DNA of 40,925 nucleotides, from the NCBI GenBank assembly GCA_036376135.1, contig DASVAW010000033.1:1-40925 (forward strand). Reading direction: 5' to 3'. The translations under genes were made by a program, and so were the position numbers. The notes below the pieces were generated by a model. The model was given only the letters and a program-made list of their open reading frames with translations. It had not been told where the DNA came from and searched no databases. Source of the stretch: Candidatus Polarisedimenticolaceae bacterium. Lineage in GTDB: Bacteria > Acidobacteriota > Polarisedimenticolia > Polarisedimenticolales > DASRJG01. Positions 1 to 5,718 of this stretch are shown here, in pieces; position 1 is the first letter of the stretch, and the number at the start of each line of letters is the position of its first letter.

Positions 1-797
1 ACGCCGGCGCCTGCCGACCAGAAATCCGAATCGGCCGCGGCGTCGTGGAAGCCGAAATTCGCGTCGTCGATCTCCAGCCAATCGACTCCACCGTGAGTCT
101 GTTGCCATCCCCCCTGTACGCGAAGGACCAGTTTGTCCGTGGGAAAGAACCCGGCTTCGACGATCCCGCTGCTCCGGTTCACACTGAGGCCTTCGACCTG
201 CTCGACGACGGTATATGCGACGGTCCCGACGAGGTAGGACCACGTCCGATCCTCCCCGAACGGTACCCCGAGACTCGCACCGACCGGGACCTCCCAGAGG
301 CCCTTGCCCGCCGCGGCGTGCCCGTGGTGTTCGTAGTCGTGTGTCGGAATCACCACGCCCGCGAAGGGCGTCACGACGACGCGCCCCCGATAGGCCTGAA
401 AGCGGGCCGCGGCCCGGAAGTCCGCCAGCGAACCGTGCCACTCGCCGTTGTCGATCTCCGGGTTCTCGGGGAAGTCGCCGACGTACCGTGAGTTGACGAA
501 CGCGACGTCCGCCCCGATCGCGAACCGGTCGCTGATGCCGTACTGGAATCCCACCGACGCGAGCCTCGTGTCGATGTCGCCGAGGTCGTATTCGTTGGTG
601 CCGTTCTCGAATCCCGCTCCGAGCTCCGTACTCGAGAAGAGGTGATTCCCGACGTCGCTCACCCCGGTCGTAAAGGTGATCGCGGCCCAACCCTTCGGAG
701 GAAGCCAGGCCTGGGCATGAGCGATCGCCCCCACGAGCAACATCGGCACGCCGAGGGCTACGGAGCGAGCGACCCGCGCCGGCATCCGCGAACTCAT
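1..797 (-). CDS. Outer-membrane beta-barrel-like protein (partial)
   Basis: The frame reads from ATG at 797 to the window edge without a stop, giving at least 265 residues; the C-terminus is missing. Residues 1-28 form a typical export signal: arginines, then a hydrophobic stretch, ending AHA before QAW. The mature part alternates short amphipathic strands with Gly/Asp/Asn turns (for example WAAITFTTGVSDVG and RLASVGFQYGISDRFAIGAD), as in Gram-negative transporter or porin-type barrels. The start ATG overlaps the stop of the upstream gene as ATGA (794-797), so the two are translationally coupled. Barrel topology is inferred from this pattern only; the substrate is unknown and no specific family is assigned. 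Confidence 0.72.
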   Translation of the reverse strand, partial: MSSRMPARVARSVALGVPMLLVGAIAHAQAWLPPKGWAAITFTTGVSDVGNHLFSSTELGAGFENGTNEYDLGDIDTRLASVGFQYGISDRFAIGADVAFVNSRYVGDFPENPEIDNGEWHGSLADFRAAARFQAYRGRVVVTPFAGVVIPTHDYEHHGHAAAGKGLWEVPVGASLGVPFGEDRTWSYLVGTVAYTVVEQVEGLSVNRSSGIVEAGFFPTDKLVLRVQGGWQQTHGGVDWLEIDDANFGFHDAAADSDFWSAGAG

Positions 798-1285
798 CTC
801 GCCGCCAGGGCACGGTCGATCGCACGGATCAACGTGGCCGCCGACGCGGGTACGTTGAGCACCACTCCGAACTCCCGCTTCGCCGCCGAGAGGTTCTTTC
901 GCGCGGCTCGGTCGAGGACCGGTACGACGATCGATCCGCCGCCGCTCGCGCGGATCGATTCGCGAACGGCCGGTGCGGAGCGATACTCGACGAGTACGAC
1001 GTCCGCGCCACGGGCGGATTCCACCAGTTCGTCCGGCCGATCGGCCACGCTGGGAGTGTGGCCAACCTCCGCGAGCACCTCGGGAAGTGCCGGGTCGAAC
1101 ATCACGGAGGTCGGGTCGGTTTCCGCGTCCCGATAGATGAGTACATTGGCGAGGACGCCCGGGGTCGCGGCACGCTCCAGCCTGCTGTTGGAGCCCGAGA
1201 AGATGAATCGATCCCCGCACGCAAACAGGTCTTGAGCACTCACGATCGACAAGGCCGCCAACAACGATCCCACCCCGCGCTTCAT
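794..1285 (-). CDS. Exported protein with receiver-like (CheY-type) fold
   Basis: The 163-aa product begins at ATG 1285, chosen because GGGGAGG lies just upstream and because it places a signal peptide at the N-terminus; a longer frame to 1375 has no such support. Residues 1-22 are hydrophobic and end in LFAC-GDRF, so Cys23 could be lipidated, although Phe at -2 is not classical. The rest (about 45-163) alternates beta strands and helices like a response-regulator receiver: NVLIYRD, ADVVLVEYR, SIVVPVLD and a C-terminal helix. I see no clear phospho-acceptor triad. A receiver-like domain behind an export signal is unusual. It is coupled by ATGA to a barrel-like gene, suggesting a joint envelope role. 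Function unknown. Confidence 0.7.
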   Translation of the reverse strand: MKRGVGSLLAALSIVSAQDLFACGDRFIFSGSNSRLERAATPGVLANVLIYRDAETDPTSVMFDPALPEVLAEVGHTPSVADRPDELVESARGADVVLVEYRSAPAVRESIRASGGGSIVVPVLDRAARKNLSAAKREFGVVLNVPASAATLIRAIDRALAAR

Positions 1286-1590
1286 CGGTGCCTCCCCTCG
1301 CGTGAGCCGACCGCGGAGGGATTCCACCGCAGAGCCACGCCCGAACTTGGTCGAACGATACCCACGCGACGGCACGCGCGAAGGGCTTTCTCGTCAGCGC
1401 GCAAGAGCGGCCGCCGTGCTGGGGCTTCCACTGGACCCAACTCCTCAAATACTTCCATTGCGTCCGGCGCAGGCGGGCGGAGTACCCGGTTGCCTCCGCC
1501 TGCGACCCCTGAATACGTTCCAAGCGCCTGAACCGAACCGCGTTTCGCGAGGCGAGCGGGGGCGCCCTCCATCGCGGTACCCTTCGCCGC
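1286..1590. other. Intergenic region between divergent genes
   Basis: This 305-bp stretch separates the minus-strand gene starting at 1285 from the plus-strand gene starting at 1591. No convincing gene is seen. It must hold both promoters. A GC-rich inverted repeat (GCAGGCGG at 1469-1476 with CCGCCTGC at 1496-1503) has no T-tract and is not a convincing terminator. Confidence 0.5.
1578..1583 (+). promoter_or_regulatory. Candidate -10 (TACCCT), leaderless start
   Basis: TACCCT ends 7 nt before the ATG at 1591 and there is no Shine-Dalgarno in between. The arrangement recurs before other genes in this window and suggests a leaderless transcript. Confidence 0.4.
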
Positions 1591-2052
1591 ATGGCGAACC
1601 CCATCCTGGTTCAGTGGCGCTCGTGGTCCCCCCGCCCGATGGGGCGGTGGATCTTCTCGAAGATGCTCTCCCGGATGGTCCCCTACTCCGGGACGATCCG
1701 GCCGGAGGTCCTCGAGGTCGAGCCGGGTCGAGCCGTGGTCGCGATCTCGGATCGCCGCTCGGTGCGCAACCACCTGAACTCGATCCACGCGATCGCGCTC
1801 GTGAACCTCGGGGAGCTCGCGAGCGGGCTCGCGCTCAACGCGGGGCTTCCCGACGAGGCGCGCGGGATCGTCACCCACCTCGAGATCGACTACCTCAAGA
1901 AGGCGCGCGGGCGGCTCGTCGCCCGCTGCGCGACGGAGATCCCCGACTGGCGGACGCCCTGCGAGCACGTCGTCGAGGCCCCGATCACCGACGCCGACGG
2001 GGACGTCGTCGCGCGGGTGCGCGTGCGCTGGAGGATCGGGCCGAAGGCCTAG
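1591..2052 (+). CDS. DUF4442/hotdog-fold thioesterase-like protein
   Basis: This 153-aa protein has the length and pattern of DUF4442-type hotdog proteins, relatives of the PaaI acyl-CoA thioesterases. A central helix (HLNSIHAIALVNLGELASGLAL) carries the Asn-x-x-x-His-Ala and Glu-x-Ala-x-Gly positions typical of the fold. It is followed by strands such as GIVTHLEIDYLKKARGRLVA. Its likely role is hydrolysis of an acyl-CoA thioester in the cytoplasm, but the substrate cannot be read from the sequence. The start is the first ATG in frame and has no Shine-Dalgarno. The TAG stop at 2050-2052 overlaps the stop of the convergent RDD gene in a shared CTAG. Confidence 0.75.
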   Translation: MANPILVQWRSWSPRPMGRWIFSKMLSRMVPYSGTIRPEVLEVEPGRAVVAISDRRSVRNHLNSIHAIALVNLGELASGLALNAGLPDEARGIVTHLEIDYLKKARGRLVARCATEIPDWRTPCEHVVEAPITDADGDVVARVRVRWRIGPKA

Positions 2053-3701: not shown

Positions 3702-5718
3702 ACCACACCTCGCACTTGCGGACGGGGTTCATCGGCGTCCCCTCGGCGCACTGGAAGGCGGCCGAGAAGTCGCGCGAGTTGGACACGGGACCGATCACTC
3801 GGTACTTCGGCAGGGAGTGCGGACCGACGGTGATCTGGTTGCGCTCCTGCTCGGGGGTCGCGATCGTGCACCACCCCTGGGCGAAGGCGACGAACAGGAG
3901 CTGGTCGTTGGTGAGACCGGGGACCGCGGGGGCCTGGCCGGGGTTGTCCTTCTCCCAGGCCTTGTAGGCGTTGTACGCCTGCTTGATCCCGCCGAGATCG
4001 GCGATGTTCTCGCCGAGCCCGAGCCGGCCGTTCATGTGCAGCCCCGGCTGCGGCTCGTAGCTCGAGTACAGGTCGGCGACGCACGACGCCCGCTCCTCGA
4101 ACTTGGTCGCGACCTCGGGGGCCCACCACTCGGCGAGGCGCCCCTTCGGGTCGAACTTCCGCCCGGAGTCGTCGAAGCCGTGGCTGAGCTCGTGGCCCAT
4201 CACCATCCCGATTCCGCCGAAGTTCATGGCCATCGGGAAGTCCTTCGAGAAGAAGGGTGGCTGGAGGATCCCCGCCGGGAAGACGATCTCGTTGAGCAGC
4301 GGCGTGTAGTACGCGTTCACGGTCGGCGGAGTCATCGCGAACCGCGTGCGGTCCACGGGCTTGCCGATCTTCTTCGCCTCCCGGTCGAAGACGTATTCCC
4401 GGACGGCCAGCGAGTTCCCGAAGAGATCGTCCTTGCGGGTCTTCACTCCGGGGTATTCCTCCCACTTCTCGGTGTAGCCGATCTTCTTCCCGAGGGCGGC
4501 CTTCTTCTCGAGGGCGCGACCGCGGGTGGCGTCGTCCATCCACGCGAGGCCGGGAAGGCTCGCCGAGAAGGCCGCCTCGATGCGGTCGATCATCTCGCGC
4601 GCGATCTTCTTGCTGTCGCCGGCGAAGTACCGCTCGACGAACTTCTTCCCGAGGAGGTCGCCGAAGGCGCCGTCGGTCGCGGCGACGCAGCGCTTCCAGC
4701 GCGCCTGGTTCTCCTGCTGGCCGCCGAGCCGTTTTCCGTAGAAGGCGAAGCTCTCGTCGACGAACGCCTTCGGGAGGAGCGCGGCGCTGGAGCGCAACAC
4801 CCCCCAGCGCAGGTAGTCCCGGATCACGGCGAGGTCGGCCTTCGCCAGGACGTCCCGCAGCCCCTTGACGTAGTCGGGGGACTGGACGTTGAGGTCCTGC
4901 ACCTCCGGGTAGCCGGTCGCCTTGAAGTAGGCATCCCAGTCGAGCTCGGGGGTGATCTCCTTCAGCCCCTTGCGGTCGAGCTTGTTGTAGGTCTTGTTCG
5001 GGTCGCGCAGCTCCACGCGCGGCTTCTGGACCTTGGCGATCTCGGTCTCGAAGGCGAGGATCGACGCCGCGGTCCTCGCCGCCGCCGCCGGCTCGCTTCC
5101 CGCGAGCACGAACATCCGCGCCACGTGCGCCTCGTAGTCGGCGCGCAGGTTCTTCGAGTTCTCGTCGTCCTTGAGGTAGTAGTCGCGGTCGGGAAACCCG
5201 AGCCCGCCCTGCCCCACGAACCCGATGTTCACGTCGGGGTTCTTGAAGTCGCCGGCGACCCCCAGGCCGAAGAACCCCGGCATCGACGCGCGGTGAAGCC
5301 GCGCGACGAGCGGCATCAGCCCCCCCTTGTCCTGGAGGGCGTCGATCTCCTTGAGGAACGGCCGCACGGGATCGAGACCCGCCTTCTCGACGCCGGCCTC
5401 GTCCATGCACGCGCCGTAGAAGTCCGCGAGACGCCGACCGTCGGCGTCCCCGGGCGACTTCAGCAGATCCTCGAGGATCCCGCGCGACCGCTCGCGGTTG
5501 CGCTCGGTGATCTCGCTGAAGGAACGGCTCCAGCGGTTCTGGTCCGCGGGGAGCTTCGTCGTGTCGAGCCAGCCGCCGCAGGCGTATCGGTAGAAGTCCT
5601 GGCAGGGATCCGCCGCGGGGTCCATCACCGAGAGGACGGTCTTGGCCGCCTCCGCGAATCGCGGATCGGGGGCCGGGGTCGCGACCGCACCGGCCGCAAG
5701 GATGAAGGTCAGCAACAT
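3700..5718 (-). CDS. M13 family zinc metallopeptidase (neprilysin/PepO-like)
   Basis: The 672-aa protein starts at ATG 5718 behind a strong AGGAGG. Residues 1-15 form a short signal peptide, so the enzyme is exported. M13 features are clear: DPCQDFYRYACGGW near the N-terminus, NAYYTP before the active site, the zinc motif HELSH at 509-513 followed by GFDDSG, GENIADLGG carrying the third zinc ligand, and CxxW-type FQCAEGTPMNP near the C-terminus. The family hydrolyses oligopeptides in the periplasm or at the cell surface. Length is standard (about 670-700). It lies 26 bp behind the MATE gene and is probably part of the same minus-strand run. All catalytic residues are present. Confidence 0.95.
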   Translation of the reverse strand: MLLTFILAAGAVATPAPDPRFAEAAKTVLSVMDPAADPCQDFYRYACGGWLDTTKLPADQNRWSRSFSEITERNRERSRGILEDLLKSPGDADGRRLADFYGACMDEAGVEKAGLDPVRPFLKEIDALQDKGGLMPLVARLHRASMPGFFGLGVAGDFKNPDVNIGFVGQGGLGFPDRDYYLKDDENSKNLRADYEAHVARMFVLAGSEPAAAARTAASILAFETEIAKVQKPRVELRDPNKTYNKLDRKGLKEITPELDWDAYFKATGYPEVQDLNVQSPDYVKGLRDVLAKADLAVIRDYLRWGVLRSSAALLPKAFVDESFAFYGKRLGGQQENQARWKRCVAATDGAFGDLLGKKFVERYFAGDSKKIAREMIDRIEAAFSASLPGLAWMDDATRGRALEKKAALGKKIGYTEKWEEYPGVKTRKDDLFGNSLAVREYVFDREAKKIGKPVDRTRFAMTPPTVNAYYTPLLNEIVFPAGILQPPFFSKDFPMAMNFGGIGMVMGHELSHGFDDSGRKFDPKGRLAEWWAPEVATKFEERASCVADLYSSYEPQPGLHMNGRLGLGENIADLGGIKQAYNAYKAWEKDNPGQAPAVPGLTNDQLLFVAFAQGWCTIATPEQERNQITVGPHSLPKYRVIGPVSNSRDFSAAFQCAEGTPMNPVRKCEVW

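Follow-up and report, generated by a model that had tools for sequence, protein, structure and literature searches.

Receivers of response regulators are of a type that is normally found inside the cell, and the gene at the beginning of the window (the whole stretch of 40,925 nucleotides analysed here) raises the question of what a protein with a receiver-like domain might do behind an export leader and next to a gene for an outer-membrane barrel. The original prediction had described the two genes as a paired envelope system that it could not name; the pair recurs in other genomes, and Pfam and NCBIfam provide no name either, neither protein of the window pair matching any family. The receiver-like gene is on the minus strand, which had not been stated before, with its ATG at 1285 and its TGA at 796-794 when translated, and the ATG of the barrel gene (797-795) overlaps this stop codon, which bears out the ATGA coupling that had been read from the DNA. 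The barrel gene is truncated where the window begins, at the beginning of the contig, and 265 residues of it are present. The module is seen only in part at the window locus, with its barrel gene cut by the contig end; a profile search of the genome of the window for the missing end of the barrel recovered the window copy alone and no other contig. The features of this region are listed in Table 1.

Table 1. Features of the pseudo-receiver locus of the window, with the related loci that have a flanking kinase gene
Feature	Coordinates	Strand	Basis
Pseudo-receiver gene, 163 aa, product predicted to be exported	794..1285	-	translation; 23 related loci including its own; receiver fold
Predicted export leader, residues 1-22, L-F-A before Cys23	1220..1285	-	sequence, hydropathy, leaders of relatives
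Cys23 and N-terminal segment CGDRFIFSGSNSRLERAATP, residues 23-42, unstructured in the model	1160..1219	-	column tallies; pLDDT
Domain with receiver fold (five beta/alpha repeats), residues 43-163; phospho-acceptor position occupied by Glu100	797..1159	-	AlphaFold2, VIA-align Z 14.1, column tally
Predicted outer-membrane barrel gene, C-terminus lost at contig end	3..797	-	translation; homologues adjoin at 22/23 loci
Intergenic stretch upstream of the pseudo-receiver gene, 305 bases, no gene called	1286..1590	.	Pfam, motif screen
DUF4442 gene, divergent from the pseudo-receiver gene	1591-2052	+	Pfam
Kinase loci: L020, L021, L022, L023, L024, L025, L026, L029, L035, L100, L101, L102, L103, L104, L105, L106, L107			PF00069

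The predicted leader reads MKRGVGSLLAALSIVSAQDLFA and is followed by CGDRF (ACGDRF at the junction), and its hydrophobic core is at residues 4-15, where the best 12-residue Kyte-Doolittle mean is 2.1. The relatives share 16-36% identity (21 of the 23 loci aligned; L028 and L108 omitted) and keep the leader, the cysteine and the domain, which argues that the frame is real; the exception is L106, in which the start is broken. In the alignment used for the residue tallies (22 of the 23 loci; the decayed L028 omitted and L108 cut after its domain), the cysteine and the glycine that follow the leader are present in all 21 rows that reach this point. This is in agreement with the proposal that residues 1-22 form a leader ending at C-GDRF, and the occurrence of the leader with the same Cys-Gly in 21 of the 22 aligned rows speaks against a true start further downstream. 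The idea that the protein is a cytoplasmic response regulator whose start was set wrongly is rejected, as the relatives have a leader ahead of the same cysteine.

The invariance of this cysteine cannot be explained by an intramolecular disulfide bridge, because 12 of the 21 rows have no second cysteine. As judged from the sequences, lipidation could account for it, but the lipobox region of the window protein reads L-F-A-C, and in 2 of 21 relatives the cysteine is preceded by a proline, which fits no lipobox. In many relatives the N-terminal segment reads CGDKFL..GRG.R, Arg35 is kept in 20 of the 21 rows that reach this segment, and throughout the aligned loci the segment is more conserved than the receiver chemistry.

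The pseudo-receiver family is present at at least 23 loci in 22 genomes, the window included. Members are found in 3 of the 41 genomes of the class of the window, in at least 13 of the 193 genomes of a second class (at least 14 copies, one of which is decayed), in at least 4 of 148 genomes of a third class and in 1 of 5 genomes of a fourth class, and one further member is on a contig labelled Gemmatimonadetes, such that the distribution is patchy among the matches listed, most of the genomes being split into many contigs. A contig scan using the window protein alone as the query recovered no relative. Profile matches with E-values between 1e-7 and 1e-3 are excluded from membership, and L004 (E 1.4e-4) was dropped, as its match falls within the extended reading frame of a TPR-like protein.

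The structure of the domain was predicted with AlphaFold2, with the window protein and five natural relatives as input. In the model of the window protein the pLDDT is below 50 over residues 1-42, between 83 and 94 in ten-residue blocks from residue 51 on, and between 88 and 94 across residues 51-160, and the order of the structural elements is that of a receiver. When the model is compared with known structures by VIA-align, the receiver of PhoP is found with a Z-score of 14.1 over 115 residues and PhoB with 13.8 over 111 residues; 13 of the first 14 rows are named response regulators or their receivers, and the remaining one is a fusion of PDB entry 3H5I, itself a response regulator by name. 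The receiver-like fold that had been proposed is therefore what the structure prediction and the fold search give for residues 43-163, and the sequence profile agrees. The family profile matches 38 of the 41 genomes of the class of the window at E ≤ 0.001, weakly apart from the 3 family members, and all six of the weak matches that were checked (a chosen subset, all from this class) are PF00072 receivers. Matches of the individual members to families of known receivers are weak and scattered: PF00072 is matched by 2 of 21 members (best E 0.061) and by the window protein not up to its curated cut-off, no Pfam family at all being matched by the latter even at E-values up to 1; VpsR is matched by 4 of 21 (best E 0.021), FleQ by 1 of 21 (E 0.027) and the response regulator CpdR by 1 of 21 (E 3.4e-4).

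Considering the model and the sequence comparisons together, a receiver that has diverged is the most likely identity of the domain. A different flavodoxin-like fold, for example a cobalamin-binding one that has the same shape and no receiver ancestry, is an improbable alternative, even though several comparisons lean towards it. The top two Foldseek matches, which are the sole matches below E 0.001, are chains of 2-hydroxyisobutyryl-CoA mutase and not receivers (we take these chains to be the cobalamin-binding subunit), and NtrX, GlnR, BfmR and other receivers follow at E-values of 0.002-0.05 with unrelated folds interspersed; in VIA-align the mutase has a Z-score of 12.9, compared with 14.1 for PhoP. 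The best match of the profile among the PDB sequences is likewise a designed Rossmann protein (E 2.4e-5), and the sparse PF00072 matches of the members fit with this alternative as well. On the other hand, the profile does reach true receivers, in each of the six cases checked and in the PDB, where the receivers of RpfC (E 2e-4) and TorR (E 2e-3) come next, and receivers and response regulators fill the top 14 VIA-align rows when the 3H5I fusion is counted with them. The cobalamin-binding motif, D.H..G, is also absent from the translated window protein.

The active-site positions were assigned by us, on the basis of where the strands end in the model and of the RpfC alignment. At the phospho-acceptor position of strand beta-3 an aspartate is present in 15 of the 22 rows and a glutamate in 2 (the window and L103), and in the other five rows it is Gly, Ser, Pro or Ala. 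At the end of beta-1, an acidic residue is found at position 52 in 1 of 21 rows and at position 53 in 2 of 21, including Asp53 of the window protein; position 124 of beta-4 is Leu, Ala or Val in all 21 rows, and position 145 of beta-5 is a lysine in 1 of 21. In the window protein these positions are occupied by Y51/R52 (then D53), E100, L124 and V145, and the catalytic set is incomplete. The remark that no clear phosphorylation site is present is thus right for the window copy, with its Glu100, and less so for the family, in which the aspartate is mostly kept. The sequences indicate that the receiver chemistry is degenerate, with the active residues beyond the beta-3 position lost. It is very improbable that the fold still acts as a phospho-acceptor or phosphorylated target, for instance of a neighboring kinase, in the relatives with the aspartate and that the window copy has lost this function. 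The aspartate at beta-3 in 15 rows and the glutamate in 2 would be in line with it, but nearly all rows lack the acidic residues of beta-1, the Thr/Ser of beta-4 and the lysine of beta-5, and the leader and the cysteine would keep the domain out of the cytoplasm and out of reach of ATP.

The proposal that the neighboring gene encodes an outer-membrane barrel can be examined better with the relatives than with the truncated window copy. The full-length relative L034 is modelled with a mean pLDDT of 75 and has 13 strand elements, of which two are pieces of one strand, hence 12 strands; its leading fold matches are outer-membrane barrels, and in L034 the barrel comes after a putative export leader. 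The nearest solved folds are a COG4313 channel (E 5e-11, TM 0.69/0.75) and the amyloid exporter FapF. OMP_b-brl is matched by 7 of 19 barrel members (best E 3.6e-8) and PF13557 (Phenol_MetA_deg) by 3 of 19 (best E 0.0065), these 19 being the aligned members out of 22 after omission of the broken or masked L026, L028 and L106; the 265 residues of the window barrel have no Pfam match.

A homologous barrel gene adjoins the pseudo-receiver gene at 22 of the 23 loci, window included, and at the 23rd (L103) the receiver frame reaches the contig end, such that the survey of adjacency called for by the original prediction comes out in favor of a lasting pair. The barrel gene immediately follows the pseudo-receiver gene in the same orientation at 21 of the 22 loci, and at L021 the order is reversed, the barrel coming first. 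When 193 genomes are searched in the reciprocal direction, from the barrel, the matches at E ≤ 1e-40 are G463 and the 13 receiver loci for which flanking sequence exists; in G463 a barrel with a neighboring kinase occurs without a receiver-like gene. No receiver-like match accompanies the barrel fragments in G434, in G462 and G294 (second contigs of both) and in G146, and the distant barrels L143, L144, L145 and L149 (E 1e-13 to 1e-17) have neither a receiver-like match nor a kinase motif within 8.7-10 kb; these distant barrels are not counted, and barrel fragments are present in L142, L146, L147 and L148. This steady pairing of the genes points to a complex between the barrel and the pseudo-receiver, which is presumably exported.

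Going beyond what could be seen in the window, a PF00069 Ser/Thr kinase gene flanks the pair at at least 17 of the 23 loci, immediately beside it at 16 of them and with one gene in between at L023 (for L021 the kinase scan used L031, which is the same contig). Motifs served for the initial selection of the kinase and winged-helix genes, and copies that lack these motifs could have escaped. From the background density of kinases, at least 742 in 18 genomes that together make up about 90 Mb (with per-genome counts from 12 up to at least 81, those of two genomes being possibly low because scoring ended at 81), and assuming one gene per kb, a kinase would be expected at about 0.4 of the 23 loci when considering two flanking genes and at 0.8 when considering four. 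At 11 of these 17 loci the kinase gene immediately precedes the pair in the same orientation, and at the others it is downstream, convergent or divergent. The kinase domain is followed by TPR repeats at 11 loci and by PD40 repeats at 5, none being seen at L106, and by a clear membrane span in 12 of 17 kinases examined (a 19-residue hydropathy mean of at least 1.8, with the broken L107 kinase left out), with no clear span in those of L022, L026, L101, L102 and L104. As the kinases vary in repeats and in position, there is no single fixed operon. A TPR tail alone is beside the pair at two more loci, L027 and L030, and no kinase is found at the window, where the motif screen shows neither a kinase nor an FHA motif in any frame, at L108 or L109 (the contigs of all three being cut on one side), or at the decayed L028. 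The protein with a receiver fold and a predicted export leader, the barrel gene and, in most relatives, the kinase together suggest an unrecognised envelope system.

A winged-helix-FHA regulator (PF00486 and PF00498) is found at at least 5 of the 23 loci, also outside the view that the window offers, and at L023 and L021 its gene and the pair are in divergent orientation. FHA domains can read phospho-threonine. An FHA-domain protein also adjoins the kinase at L029 (1-848, minus strand).

It is possible, with the balance about even, that these genes form an envelope module in which an exported and perhaps lipid-anchored pseudo-receiver docks to the barrel and works with the membrane kinase. The window protein would cross the inner membrane and might be anchored by a lipid at Cys23, its N-terminal segment and pseudo-receiver being in the periplasm against the 12-stranded barrel or threaded into it, and the receiver fold would act as a protein-docking surface and not as an acceptor of phosphate. 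The Hanks-type kinase would have its kinase domain in the cytoplasm, usually one membrane span, and then TPR or PD40 repeats in the periplasm. The barrel and the pseudo-receiver may then be the envelope sensor of the kinase, or an effector regulated by it, in a manner resembling RcsF and its outer-membrane proteins in the Rcs phosphorelay; as a sensor they would report a state to the kinase, which would act through the FHA regulators, and the window copy might rely on a kinase gene located elsewhere or past the end of the contig. It is also consistent with the data that control runs the other way, with the kinase and the regulator switching the pair on, and the divergent position of the regulator gene at L023 and L021 favors this. 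The pairing is steady, and at most loci the input domain of the kinase is expected to face the same compartment as the pair; envelope signalling is the simplest joint reading.

The same observations can be read in other ways. With a channel and an amyloid exporter as the nearest folds of the barrel, transport is as open as sensing, and the genes might encode a transport or secretion unit in which the barrel is the channel, the pseudo-receiver is a periplasmic partner that acts as its gate, as a supplier of cargo or as the cargo, and the kinase and FHA proteins control expression only, with the regulator gene positioned at L023 and L021 as a regulator of the pair would be. This is a rather doubtful alternative, but one that deserves attention: a fold match cannot separate a channel from a structural or sensory barrel, and the frequent location of the kinase gene directly upstream on the same strand is as expected for a partner in one unit. 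That the window copy is a solitary relic pair, which has lost its kinase and has no function, appears improbable. Decayed copies do occur among the relatives (L028, a fragment at L021 and the broken frames of L106) and the window has no kinase motif, but the two window frames are uninterrupted and retain the conserved residues, and the downstream side, where L020 and L022 have their kinase, lies beyond the contig end.

Returning to the envelope-signalling reading, its fullest form is tentative: a trans-envelope pathway, found mainly in Acidobacteriota and undescribed so far, may lead from the barrel and an exported lipoprotein pseudo-receiver, as sensors of the envelope or of the exterior, to the periplasmic TPR or PD40 repeats of a Hanks-type kinase and from there to a winged-helix-FHA regulator. 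If true, this would be an Rcs-like pathway built on Ser/Thr phosphorylation, and a receiver fold would have been reused outside the cytoplasm, where its usual chemistry would be without an ATP-fed donor; we know of no earlier case of a receiver fold that functions there. We know of few Ser/Thr kinases of such bacteria with a known input, and for some of them the pair offers a candidate partner, on the input or the output side, that is open to deletion and assay.

When compared with the PF00072 receivers, such as PhoP, PhoB and CheY, the window domain has the same fold, the same order of elements over residues 43-163 and a relation at the level of profiles, whereas the window protein differs in its predicted export leader, in the loss of the active residues save for the glutamate at the aspartate position and in having no PF00072 match. 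Pseudo-receivers of the type of the KaiA N-terminal domain, VpsR, FleQ and GlnR are cytoplasmic and fused to other domains. They likewise have a receiver fold without the full chemistry, the KaiA and GlnR domains being among the Foldseek matches of the window model and VpsR and FleQ among the sub-significant Pfam matches, but the window domain stands alone behind a predicted export leader. In the titles and opening lines of abstracts that were surveyed, nothing is mentioned on this exported-receiver system, and a literature search for periplasmic pseudo-receivers with a signal peptide or for FHA/winged-helix kinase regulators of Acidobacteria found none.

Rcs signals through a His-Asp phosphorelay, and the gene for RcsF lies apart from those of its barrel partners. 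By analogy, RcsF with these partners appears to be the nearest known way of working: it is a small envelope protein that, with a barrel, feeds a membrane-bound kinase pathway, and the likeness is one of mechanism, with no homology claimed. EmbR of mycobacteria is an FHA-containing winged-helix regulator under the Ser/Thr kinase PknH. The five loci with a winged helix and FHA near a Hanks-type kinase resemble this arrangement, but no BTAD domain is listed for them, they are linked to an envelope pair, and no such regulator is seen in the window. Pput2725 (PDB entry: 4rl8; PMC4493636) is a COG4313 outer-membrane channel. The barrel model, with Pput2725 and FapF as its nearest solved folds, shares 12-14% identity with 4rl8, and in contrast to the COG4313 channel the barrel described here adjoins a receiver-like gene.

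Some loci also carry traces of decay or rearrangement. At L021 a frame-broken second receiver-like remnant (about 4624-4743, minus strand, E 8e-4) is present between the barrel and the intact receiver-like gene. At L028 (2816-3952, plus strand) the pair is decayed, such that the end of the receiver domain remains and the barrel is split over two frames, with no kinase motif nearby. At L030, and at L003 (1-1276), a TPR tail precedes the pair and the frame just upstream resembles a DnaB-type helicase by eye, this junction being either a rearrangement or an assembly join.
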